From Theodoxus fluviatilis (taxonomy: Eukaryota; Mollusca; Gastropoda; Cycloneritida; Neritidae): DNA of 64,000 nucleotides. Every line of letters starts with the position of its first letter. Positions within the stretch are counted from its first letter, which is position 1. Under the pieces are notes generated by a model. That model searched no databases and was not told the origin of the DNA. It saw nothing but the letters and a program-made list of their open reading frames with translations. The DNA is taken from positions 65,001 through 129,000 of the forward strand of contig JAWQFJ010025575.1 of assembly GCA_034096865.1 (NCBI GenBank), given 5' to 3'. Positions 21,101-33,100 of the stretch are shown in pieces. The translations under genes were made by a program, and so were the position numbers.

Positions 21101-24100
21101 AATCAGAGCCATATTGGTCATATTTATCCTTAGGTAATCACTTTTGGCAGTATTATTTGCTAAATTCATTTGTAATTGTGAAAATACGTCGCTTGTTTTA
21201 GACCCACGTGTTGACCATATTAGCCGCTTAGCGGACGATTTCGTTTCAATGCTCTGTGCACTCGCGCGCTGATTTAATTTGTTTCTTTAGGAAACAGTTG
21301 CTGCTGCTGTGCCTAGATCAAATTTGAGTCATTTCTGAATCATTCTATGCCGGATATTAACGTGTTTTCTCATGGATTGCGATGGACGTACATGGATTAA
21401 TATACTTATATAGAGGTGCCTCGCCGCACCTCGCTTGCAATGACTTCGCTGTTGATCAACATTTCACTCCGAGTTGTGAAATGGGGTGGTTTTTTTACCT
21501 TTCGCCATACATGTGATATATTTATTTCAAAGTCAAACTAATCTTCAATCACTACTTCGATAGTTTTTAATTCTCTGCAGTCTGCTGTTGTTTTCTTAAG
21601 GATTAAATAAGGATGTAAGGAATATTTGCTCCTTTGCTGAAACGCTAGGCCTCGCGTTCCGAACACCATCCATTAATTCATCATTGTTTTTTTCCCAGTT
21701 GTGACGTACTTGTTCTTTAATCAAATTAACTCGTTTAAATGTCTAGGGGAAGAACTAGAGCACGCACCTTCACTCCTCCATTCAAACGCTAGATGGTAAT
21801 TGTCTAAATGAAGCAATGGCAAAAACAGTATCAATTCAAAGGAAGTAGTTTAATTTTCATAAATGCATTTACCTGTGAACGGTGAATGGGCGCCCAGCGC
21901 CACAAAAATGCATAGAATGCAAGTAGAAGCAATCAATTCATTTTCACAAATTGAAGCGAGACAAGTAAAACAAACAATGAAAAGAAAGATGTCTGCCCGA
22001 GCCGGGGTAATTAACTAAATGTACTTATCTGACCTTTTCGATGAAAACGTGCAGTTGGAGAAGCACGGACCTATACCCCACGCTCACCGCGTCAGCACAG
22101 GGGTTGGAATTGGGGGAAGGGGGTCTGAGTGCACCGACATTGCAGCCGGTGACCCTGGAGGGAAATCACCACAGTCGATGAAAACAGTTGAACTGGGCAT
22201 TCTTTCGTTCTCTCTCTCTCTCTGGCATTTCTTCTTCTTCTGCGTCGTGTCGAAGGAACTGGCTCCTACGTCTTCTTCTTCTTCTTCCTCGGACAGGAGT
22301 CGGTCTGCTTTCCAACAAGACAGGCCACCACACTTTAGCAAAGCAGGCAAGCAGGCTGGCAGGCAAGCTGGCTGTTCAACATTCCACCACCCCCTGGCAG
22401 AGGGGTTCGCTTCCAACCGGCTCCGGGCCGGCTGAGGTTTCTCACTATTCCCATTCTACGTTTCTCTATATGGCCACCGCCAAGTGTAAACTTAACAAGC
22501 AGGGCGCCAGCATCTTCACGGACACTGCTTTTGCTGAAAATAAATGTTATGACGCCACGAGCATCCGGCGACACTCGTTTAAATAACTTCGCTGACGTCA
22601 CCAAGTTCAGCCAGTCCAATCACAACTGTCCATCCCACTCCACTCTGACTGGTCAATTCACACGTTAAAAGTCACAGGTTGGTCAGCGCTAAAACGCCAG
22701 TGGAGTCCACTACACTGGTAACGCTTTCAAGTCATTCAACTACACAGGGGTCAATTCTATACTGACACCGGCTCAGGGCAATGAAAAAACCTCTAAAGCT
22801 ACGGCTCAGCAGACGCATTTTAAACATTTCTAGTAATACTAATAACCAGAAGGCATGCAAAAACGTTGTCTCGCCACACCAGTTTATCCAAGTTTTATGG
22901 TCTATCATACTAATTTGAGTCAAATAAAAGACTGACTGAAACTGTGAAGGTAAAACTAGTAAAAGTAAACAGCCCTGTGTCATGTGTGGTTTCAGTCATA
23001 AATCAGTAAATAATTGATAATTGATATGAGCATATTTTGTTTGTTACACACGTTGCACTTGCACCATATTCTTCTTCTGGCAAATCATTCACAGTGGAAT
23101 CTCCAGCAAACCTGCCTGCCATGTACACCAGTTTTAAGCAGCACTTGATTGACAATTTTGTTTGAGTCTTTGAATGACTTTGAAGTAGGGTTATGAATTT
23201 GACAATCGCAACTTGTCCCACTGTGCGCTTTGCAAGAATTTTGTTTAGAACATAGAACTGTTAACAGTATTTGTAAATATCTTCCTTGATTTAACACATA
23301 TGTGTGAAGATAACAGTATAACTAATCTACACACCAAAAATCATGGCTGTATTCCCAATAGTTTCTGAAATATTGCAATCTGAAATGTGGTTTTCCCCTA
23401 AATTTCCGTCGTTTCCACTGAAGATCATGGAGAATTTGTACATACTTGTGTGTGATTTTTTCAAACATTGCACTCTCTACAAAGCTTACATTGTAATCTG
23501 TCTATACACCAAAATTGGTGGTTGTATCTTTAATAGTTTCTGAATTATTGGCATTAAAGTGACAAAAAATGTACTTTTTCCTGTTGTTCCGCTTAACAAA
23601 TTCGTGTTTTTGTCATTTTTGAGGCTCTTTTTCTCCCAAAATATGAAACTAGACTGGCTGAAAAAACAAACACTTATTCTACACAAACATGTTTGGCATT
23701 TCTGAAAGTTCCAGACTGCTCCTGTACATATTATATGAAATGTGATGACCGAAAGTTGCCCCCTCGGCAATTTTGTGATCGGAGGTGCGAAAACATGTAT
23801 ACTAAAATATCAATATCTCATGAACTAATGAAGGTATCCACTTACTTTTTTGTGTGTTATGCTTGTATTGTGTTCTTCTTTTAAAATATCACAAAACATA
23901 CACTCTCACTTAAAAATAAAATTTTGACTGCCCCTACCTACATTGCACTAGTCTTTGCCTCTGATTGCAGTAGTTCTGTCATTACACTAGTCTTTGTCTC
24001 TGATTGCAGTAGTTCTGTCATTGCACTAATCTTTGTTTCTGATTGCAGTAGCTCTGTACTGTCATTGCACTAGTCTTTGTCTCTGATTGCAGTATCTCTG

Positions 24101-30100: not shown

Positions 30101-33100
30101 TGCACTAGTCTTTGTCTCTGATTGCAGTAGCTCTGTACTGTCATTGCACTAGTCTTTGTCTCTGATTGCAGTAGCTCTGTACTGTCATTGCACTAGTCTT
30201 TGTCTCTGATTGCAGTAGCTCTGTACTGTCATTGCACTAGTCTTTGTCTCTGATTGCAGTAGCTCTGTCCTTGTACTAGTCTTTGTTTCTGATTGCAGTA
30301 GCTCTGTCATTGCACTAGTCTGTGTTTCTCATTGCAGTAGCTGTCATTGAACTAGTCTTTGTTTCTGATTGCAGTAGCTCTGTCATTGCACTAGTCTGTG
30401 TTTCTCATTGCAGCCTTTGGAGAGCTGAATGACAACTCAGGCAGTTCCAATGTGTACAGTCCCACACCTTGTCTGAAGATTCGAAACATGTTTGATGCAG
30501 ACATGTAAGTAGATGTTCATGTAATTTAGAACACAAAATGTTAATCAAAACGTAGGGTGCAGGTCTTTCTGTACCTTAATGAAGGTGAAGTTTAAATTTT
30601 AATTGGGAAAATCAGTTTGTTGCTTCTTTTTTCCCCCATGTTATATCTATATATTAATACGCAAAAAGGTAAAACTTTATGCAAGAACTCCTCCGAGCCC
30701 GTTTCGCCAATCGCTTTGCTTTTTGGCATTGGCCCAGAGGACGGTTGGGAAGGGGTAGTTGGGTATTTTTCGTGACCAAATTTGACTTTGAAGTGACTTT
30801 TTTAGGTCCCCGCAAGTTTCAGTCAGCCTTCATCCTATGATCGCATTTTTGGTGGACCAACTCGAATCATATATACGTTAGTGACTCGCTATGATGTCAT
30901 GTGAGTCAGTAGACGAGGGGATAGAGCGCGGGACTGTGAACGCTTGAAAGTCCTAAAGTCGTTGGGTTCGAGCCCCGGAAAGTTAAAAAAAAAAAAAATT
31001 CTTATCCACTTTTCAACATGTAACAGTACTTACTCTTCTTTTATTATCAATGTGTTTGGTATTTCCAAGTCAGTCTGAGTTTGTATGTAAACATGCTATA
31101 AAATCTGTTTACAGTAATAGTCACATCAGCAGTGCGTAGCACGGGTACCCGCTAGTTGTATATAAATGTATATTCTTTTTGGTTTTTTTATATTTTGCTG
31201 GATAATGAGAACAGATTGACTTACTTACAAATACTTATGTGTACACACTCCTTAACATGTTCTGCATGTGTTTGAAAGTGTACTGAGAGCAGAGTTCCTA
31301 CTTGGAAATCATTTTGTTGGTGACTCCATGGTTACCGTGAGTGAATATGGTTGCAAAAAGTATTTGTCTCATGAGTTGATGCACTCCAGCAGTGTGAGGC
31401 ATACATGGGTGCCAACAAGCCTTAATGAGTACCTGGCCACTTAGACATGTATGCATTCATGTTAAAACTGAATATAGTCTCCAGCTTACTGTGAGTTATG
31501 CAACTCCAAAATGTCATCTTGCATGTTGAGATGCTTCAGCACTGGGGTTGACAGGGTTGCATACATTATGTGTCTCAGCACCACAACATGAGTTGCATGG
31601 TGCTAATGGGCAATTTCGAGCTGTGTAGCATTTCCATAAGAAAATGTCATAAGATGGTGAAAACTATCTTTGAAACAAATTATTTGGATCAAAGTTATCT
31701 GCAATGGAATTATGCATCCATTGAAATCAACAGTTTGAAAATGTTTGTGAGAGCTCAATCTAATTAAAACAGTTGGGTTCTTTTTTTTCTATAACTGTCA
31801 ACATACCATTCTCATCAAAATGCATTTAAAATTATTTTATAAGCTGTAGATTGACTTCAATCTTCAGATACTGTTGAGAAAAATTGGCCACATCAATTTT
31901 CTATGAAGATCTCGCTATTGACAACAAAACCCCTAGCCATTGGAAGGGGCTGGAGCTCAGTTGTGCCTGAGGCAGAAAGCCATCCACTCCCTGGTGTAGG
32001 ATCACTGTTAGAAAGACAGCAGTGGCTGACTGGGTGCTCACTCTGACATCATTCTGTGGCCATCTGATCACAAAGAGTGAAGGTGCACTGCGAGGTTTAA
32101 CTGGACTTGGGATGACACTGATGCCAGCTGTTATGGCCGAATACAAAATCTGAAATGAGATGACTGTTTAACAACCAAAATATACCATAGAATGCACAAC
32201 TTTGGGTACAGTGCTTCTTTGTGGAAAACAATGACGTGCTACAACAGAGAAGAGTGAAATGGAGTAAGAATCCAATAAAGAAATGCAGATGTTTTTCATC
32301 AGGTGCAACAGGTGAGAAGACATACTTACAGGAGGGACACATAAAGGTGATTTCTCTCGTGCTGCAGTGAGAATGCAGAGGACTGGCACGTGGCCATAGA
32401 GGACGCCTTGCTGGAGAAGTGCCGCAGCATCAGTGCAGTGGTGCACGTCCATGTAGACCAGGACTCCAAGGAGGTCAGTCCAAGTCTGAAAACTTCAGCA
32501 CTTTTTGCCCTCTACATATACACTTTTCTGCAGTCTTGCTTCTGTTATTTCTAGAATGGGGTGTGCCTGGCAAGCAGCAGCTGTTTATCTGACATGGAGA
32601 AGTTTGCACCTTTATCAGATGCATCCCAGTAGCTCTGAAACACTACTTCCACTCACTGTCAAGCTGTTTGAGCAGTCCCCAAAAGTTATGTGGCCATGGG
32701 TTCCAGCTGATGAGGGGGGTCTTAAATCTATTGCCTTATGGATAACTCCAGTGGATGCCTTTTTTTAATTAGTCTGAATGGTCTGCATGAAAAACTCTTT
32801 CCTTTGAAAAGTTCTTTGGATATTTGCATTCCATTGGAAATGTAAAGAAACATAACTGTGGTAATGAATGTAAAGAAATCTTGTCACCATAATCACCTTG
32901 TGCCTTCAATTGCACACAAGTCATGTAAGGGGAGCCATTCTGTACATGTGTGTGAATCTACTCCTATCAAACAAGAACTGGGGGTTGAAGCTGGAATAGC
33001 CAGTGTGCATGAAAACCTGCATGCAGTGCCCACATCTCAGGCCAGTCCCGCTTTCACTCTGCAGTGTCAGAGCACTTGTTACACAGGGTAAAGGTGATGT

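Follow-up and report, generated by a model that had tools for sequence, protein, structure and literature searches.

In a 64,000-nucleotide stretch of the genome of the gastropod Theodoxus fluviatilis (assembly GCA_034096865.1, contig JAWQFJ010025575.1, positions 65,001 to 129,000 of the forward strand; hereafter the window), intron 8 of the MAN1 (LEMD3) gene carries a tandem array of 155 acceptor-like units, the right edge of which is exactly the AG of the exon 9 acceptor. The reading that we favour, with a probability of about 0.75, is that this array is a non-adaptive minisatellite similar to those termed mirages in amphioxus, which would have been seeded at the 3' end of intron 8 and of which the exon-anchored copy would be the one used. 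Tandem Repeats Finder reported a single array with a period of 44, 154.7 copies and 92% matches, and cutting it in register after each CAG gave 155 units of 34 distinct sequences. These units fill the whole interval and bear out the initial annotation of the window, which had described about 150 tandem copies of a 3' splice site in front of the exon. It had also described each unit as 44 bp long, which holds for the majority form (93 of 155); the remainder are 39 bp (47 units), 37 bp (14 units) and, for the first unit, 30 bp. A 16-base unit core with at most 3 mismatches matched the window 155 times versus 1.18 times expected from shuffles. Units end in GCAG in 153 of 155 cases and in ACAG in the other two, 148 contain CTAGTC and seven CTAATC, and the G of CTGAT is present in 141, while the terminal unit and 13 others read CTCAT. 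As previously claimed, homology to the repeat stops exactly at the exon 9 acceptor AG, such that the working site is the final unit. The terminal and antepenultimate copies are identical across the 63 nt leading up to the AG, where homology ends, and the start of exon 9 resembles the unit at chance level (1475 of 2000 shuffles score as high). These two copies are also the only ones of the 155 with a CTGTG variant. Since they share both this private variant and the 63 nt of identity, the working acceptor has recently exchanged with the array.

The exon 8/9 junction itself is conserved. Exons 7, 8 and 9 translate continuously (..VWRWIN-SMKNGGKVWQGQ-(A)FGELNDNSGSSNVYSPTPCLKIRNMFDAD), and the Pfam MSC match at exon 7, although below the family cut-off (E = 0.0023), is accompanied by matches to two solved structures of human MAN1, 2ch0 (E = 4e-14) and 5zoj (E = 5.4e-6). 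The residues KVWQGQ/AF are identical to solved MAN1 across the junction, and the intron splits the Ala codon (G/CC TTT). Because the A-F residues match, the start of exon 9 has not been shifted to meet the array. Exons 10, 11 and the last exon were assigned by reading, in comparison with MAN1. A Pfam MSC search of the assembly returned no matches, as did the same search of control genomes, so that this negative carries no weight.

We found the unit at this locus only. A 27-base core, allowing at most 3 mismatches, matched the whole 965-Mb assembly 155 times on the forward strand and not at all on the reverse strand, and both mirrored controls gave no matches. As the MAN1 array alone contains 155 matches, there is no copy of the unit outside it; the unit is confined to the MAN1 locus, and a generic satellite is therefore ruled out for this assembly. 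The initial annotation had named an array at many unrelated intergenic loci as an observation that would overturn it, and the assembly holds none beyond MAN1. Dispersed satellite DNA was rejected as a candidate on the same count, all 155 assembly matches lying within the array. The unit had no match in a plasmid collection, and positions 20000-31500 of the window gave no Rfam match at gathering score. With exon 9 as the query, 40 of 245 candidates were scored; a single one of these matched the exon, and no second haplotype was seen there. That the length or edge of the array is misassembled is highly improbable. Long arrays are hard to assemble, and N was reached in two of the five other arrays whose edges were fetched; against this, the window is free of N, the 34 unit types stand in a definite order, and the repeat stops at both edges with other sequence beyond.

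The internal structure of the array records how it may have grown. The 44-bp unit consists of two related 22-nt halves, TAG..CATTGCAC and TAG..ATTGCAG, which are alike at 13 of 22 positions, and in the units of 37 and 39 bp the first half is incomplete. The motif CACTAGTC, previously described as branch-site-like, is the join of these two halves. It is for this reason a poor argument for a branch site; it seems to mark the edge of an older 22-bp half-unit and is not a clear branch site. Neighbouring units are alike beyond shuffles at lag 1 (z = 6.0) and at lag 17 (z = 5.1), and a block of nine units is repeated in the same order 17 units on, a recurrence that, judged from the order of the units, is the mark of unequal exchange. 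We envisage that a short piece ending at the intron 8 acceptor AG was tandemly duplicated, that growth proceeded first, probably, as the 22-bp half-unit and subsequently as dimers of 37, 39 and 44 bp, and that unequal exchange then amplified the unit to 155 copies. The last, exon-attached copy would have stayed in use throughout. The spliceosome would favour it because no other copy is attached to exon 9 and so to the enhancers and 5' splice site of that exon. On the rare occasions when an upstream copy is used, the message would contain a stop codon and would presumably be degraded. The array would thus lengthen the intron without being selected for any function.

The copies were compared as splice sites by an ad hoc acceptor score. 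On this score the terminal acceptor reaches 5.06, the internal copies have a mean of 4.20, and 12 of the 154 internal copies reach the terminal score; on the same scale the five other MAN1 acceptors score between 1.73 and 7.28, and of 485 other AGs in introns 2.1% score at or above the mean of the internal array acceptors. The decoys are therefore good acceptors of quality comparable to the working site, as had been proposed, and most are slightly poorer than the terminal copy. When joined to exon 8 (phase 1), all 154 internal AGs lead to a stop 18-99 nt on, and in no phase does any of them allow exon 9 to be reached without a stop. The earlier statement that an internal unit would meet TGA within one unit is accurate as to distance for 136 of the 154, with a stop at 18 or 36 nt; the stop can lie as far as 99 nt away, however, and it is TGA in 92 cases but TAG in 56 and TAA in six.

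It had also been suggested that only the last copy is followed by a 5' splice site within exon-definition range. In keeping with exon definition, the best GT within the array has a donor score of -3.7 versus +5.1 for the exon 9 donor. The last five decoys nevertheless remain in range: when decoys are paired with the exon 9 donor, five give an exon of at most 300 nt and nine an exon of at most 500 nt. Since five decoys stay within 300 nt, something besides exon definition must single out the last copy. RNA structure that hides the decoys is not indicated, as the last 314 nt of the array together with exon 9 are less structured than shuffles (z = +1.9; 99 of 100 shuffles fold as well). Use of the internal copies, whether as alternative acceptors or in stepwise (recursive) removal of the intron, is very unlikely. 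The internal acceptors do score similarly to the terminal one, but no GT in the array comes near a donor score, final splicing to any internal AG gives a stop, and the boundary between units reads CAG/TA instead of the AG/GT of a ratchet (recursive) splice site, a candidate that we rejected on these grounds.

The same data bear on the proposal that the array is a regulatory dial, in which the copies act as decoys for the acceptor machinery or for U2AF/U2, productive splicing runs at a rate set by their number, and they are kept by selection. The copies are near the real site in score, every decoy product has a stop, as a poison-splicing switch would need, and the poor folding of the array end with exon 9 (z = +1.9) does not predict that the decoys are hidden there. 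However, the stops occur in all three phases, so that no selection is needed to account for them; the units vary in length and sequence, with no constraint noticed, although no dedicated test for constraint was made; similar arrays stand on unrelated genes; and amphioxus mirages are reported not to disturb splicing. We consider a regulatory dial rather improbable. The specific suggestion that copy number tunes MAN1 splicing, and with it TGF-beta/BMP signalling, finds no support.

The similar arrays elsewhere come from targeted looks and from a sample of twenty 10-kb stretches (166,252 non-N bases, one stretch being all N) that were picked before reading, from contigs listed for an interspersed repeat. 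This repeat starts in MAN1 intron 9 (30645-30700) and has 39 further matches among the 40 of 245 candidates that were scored. With simple repeats left out, the sample holds 16 arrays of at least 300 bp; for this count, the arrays of stretch L030 were taken as a single inverted pair and a G-rich array, and a CT-rich array in L019 was left out. Seven of the 16 are at least 1 kb long, and large minisatellites are therefore ordinary in this genome. The 6.1-kb array at L025 1-6118 (G000:C1259:50000-59999) consists of a 37-bp unit in 165 copies and is cut by the edge of the stretch.

Four of the 16 sample arrays lie on a splice junction, as read by eye from their flanks in this small sample; on that reading, the acceptor array of the NAD kinase gene is firm, and the other three, at donors, are weaker: two probable and one unproven. 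Judged in this way, splice-junction arrays are present in at least two other genes of the T. fluviatilis genome. In the NAD kinase (NADK) gene, an acceptor together with 24 nt of exon is repeated about 80 times up to the real exon; 69 copies read ACAG/GTGAGG, at once acceptor and donor-like, and all 68 exact internal sites lead to a stop. In an UNC-93-like gene (Pfam UNC-93 match just under cut-off, E = 9.9e-5; no Protein Data Bank (PDB) match to its exons below E = 0.2), two arrays begin at exon ends with the donors GTAGGG and GTCAGG, and a third, degenerate array, which is outside the 16 counted, follows GTGAGT. The period of the GTAGGG array is exactly 51 bp and its frame is open for 694 codons, and the second has a frame without a stop to the end of the fetched stretch. 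Because these frames stay open, the UNC-93-like arrays may be coding repeats instead of donor arrays. The fourth case, L020, is a donor array of a 72-bp unit that follows an 83-codon open frame, with two donor-like sites per unit by reading and no family match to the exon.

A targeted look at donor motifs covered five arrays, each from a different one of six listed contigs; the remaining contig resembles a simple repeat. Of these, L048 (G000:C28:30100-30900, minus strand) clearly spans a donor, on a coding exon (..HIEELKTLRDK/GTGAGAAC) whose product resembles a coiled coil, and 27 nt of that exon fall within its 38-bp unit; L047 is plausible, L050 is not junctional, and L046 and L049 run into N. 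The acceptor motif in arrays had 866 matches versus 254 for the mirrored control, counts that are inflated by copy number. The donor motif showed no enrichment (28,019 versus 49,625 for a control that is probably inflated by simple repeats, so that nothing follows from the comparison).

These observations also weigh on a chance meeting, in which one of many minisatellites grew as far as the exon, which then took over the last AG of the array as its acceptor. Arrays of at least 1 kb are common (seven in the 166-kb sample and three in the window), and we estimate that, if 200,000 introns are assumed, exact coincidences should number a handful in the whole genome. A coincidence does not, however, account for an acceptor that is itself a full in-register unit, for the conserved A-F codons and unmoved exon start, or for the exon bases in junction arrays elsewhere in the genome, and we regard it as unlikely. 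Because those other junction arrays contain exon bases, minisatellites do grow out of junctions in this genome. The broader idea, that minisatellites growing from splice junctions lengthen introns widely, with tens to 150 copies in many genes and routine use of the exon-anchored copy, we hold as tentative, at somewhat less than even odds.

Minisatellites of splice junctions have precedents. The amphioxus mirages are minisatellites of exon/intron boundaries described in Adh, the globins BflGb6 and BflGb9, troponin C and PGBD5 (PMC3087553, PMC3902484). Splicing is reported there to be undisturbed, as RT-PCR suggests for the globins, and the copy number of BflGb6 is given as 6 and 3 in two haplotypes, with units of 150-160 bp, while those of Adh3 measure 10-72 bp (PMC3087553, PMC3902484). 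Like the mirages in these accounts, the MAN1 array is a tandem boundary minisatellite with a real exon-attached copy, splice signals in the copies and concerted evolution, and its unit includes a real splice junction, at the edge of the unit and not inside it. Unlike BflGb6, whose unit has exon bases, it has 155 copies and a unit with 0 nt of exon (versus 24 nt at NADK and 27 nt at L048). Since its unit is without exon sequence, MAN1 is a variant of the mirages and not a typical member. The NADK array likewise brings a 3' splice site, about 80-fold, up to a real exon with internal sites that lead to stops, but it differs from MAN1 in the 24 nt of exon in its unit and in its AG/GTGAGG boundary, which is also donor-like. 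On the donor side, the human 6-16 (IFI6) gene contains a minisatellite of multiple splice donors (Turri 1995, cited in PMC4526556). As summarised there, it supplies many copies of a splice site as the MAN1 array does; unlike the latter, it lies at the donor and its downstream units are used for alternative mRNAs. Finally, beta-globin pre-mRNAs given two 3' splice sites, one of them upstream with a partial exon, are described as spliced only at the distal one (PMC5389562). These substrates resemble MAN1 in that duplicated acceptors compete and the distal one is chosen, and differ in that, as described, they test two copies, in vitro and inefficiently.

Several of these points weigh against a mirage-type origin of the MAN1 array. 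The MAN1 unit holds no exon bases, whereas the BflGb6 and NADK arrays do. Splicing of the beta-globin substrates is reported as very inefficient, and the length of the upstream exon piece to alter the choice of site (PMC5389562). A targeted look at acceptor motifs covered nine arrays, from nine of the 13 contigs listed, with 0.65-1.2 kb fetched for each; by reading, none of the eight arrays with a visible downstream edge ends at an exon, the edge of L041 not being reached. As none of the eight does so, arrays with acceptor motifs are mostly not of the MAN1 kind.

The initial annotation had held that no case on this scale was described. The unit is at a single locus, but arrays of this kind recur in the genome, at NADK and as donor arrays; and it is at most the scale that is without precedent, as the amphioxus mirages already exemplify the kind. 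Among the matches listed in the open-licence literature, there was no closer acceptor array of the size of that in MAN1. What is new here is the copy number, the exact edge at the AG and the recurrence in the genome. Acceptor choice has been tested with two copies in vitro, and MAN1 offers a natural gene with 155, all but the last of which break the reading frame. If junction arrays were common, they would provide many independent natural tests of exon anchoring among near-identical sites, as well as a tangible mechanism of intron growth and perhaps, as proposed for amphioxus, of the origin of new introns.

Table 1. Locations of the MAN1 exons, the array and its parts, junction arrays elsewhere in the genome, and other proteins. 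Positions are those of the window unless a sampled stretch is named.
Feature	Location	Strand	Basis or remark
MAN1 exon 7, end of MSC domain, ends ..VWRWIN/gtaagt	19237..19357	+	Pfam MSC, PDB 2ch0
MAN1 exon 8, SMKNGGKVWQGQ plus one base (phase 1), donor AAG/GTACGT	20090..20126	+	
MAN1 intron 8, about 10.3 kb, 6.5 kb of it array	20127..30413	+	
Array of 155 tandem acceptor-like units (44, 39 or 37 bp), the only such locus in the assembly	23941..30413	+	
First unit, incomplete (30 bp, core only), left edge of array	23941..23970	+	
Nine units in identical order, copy 1 of higher-order duplication	28072..28448	+	
Nine units in identical order, copy 2, 712 bp downstream of copy 1	28784..29160	+	
Antepenultimate unit, same sequence as terminal unit (private CTGTG variant)	30299..30337	+	
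Terminal unit, exon 9 acceptor, ..CTAGTCTGTGTTTCTCATTGCAG/	30375..30413	+	
MAN1 exon 9, (A)FGELNDNSGSSNVYSPTPCLKIRNMFDAD.., donor CAT/GTAAGT	30414..30504	+	
MAN1 exon 10 (..ENAEDWHVAIEDALLEKC..)	32368..32473	+	end and identity by reading
MAN1 exon 11	33147..33225	+	end and identity by reading
MAN1 last exon (RLVTVKYLRLETYLARFPEA..stop)	36797..36948	+	identity by reading
NAD kinase acceptor array	L033 5452-7954 (G000:C2840:30000-39999)		PDB 3pfn, E = 1.2e-25
UNC-93-like gene, arrays at ends of three exons	L023 51-756, 1399-3349, about 5060-5571 (G000:C6298:30000-39999)	-	
72-bp unit x 6 from donor onward	L020 826-1254 (G000:C10440:1-10000)	-	
Transposon-like proteins	44624-45862, 59331-60137, 61135-61572	-, -, +	

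Other repeats were noted in the window and in the sample. Two further long minisatellites of the window, at 8439-9805 (53 bp x 26) and 10134-12903 (21 bp x 132), flank a possible exon at about 9959-10100; by reading, neither reaches the splice sites of this exon. A short array at 38639-38860 consists of a 71-bp unit in 3.1 copies with 100% matches and contains TTTTGCAG. In the sample, L030 4397-6969 holds two 21-bp arrays of 61 copies each, inverted relative to one another and with inverted flanks, which form a palindrome of at least 2.6 kb. The transposon-like proteins of the window comprise a 413-aa frame, which has 249 homologues but no Pfam match, as well as fragments of a reverse transcriptase and of a DDE_Tnp_4 transposase. 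For one such protein, the best match that names an organism, 55th among the 120 matches listed, is to the snail Gigantopelta aegis.

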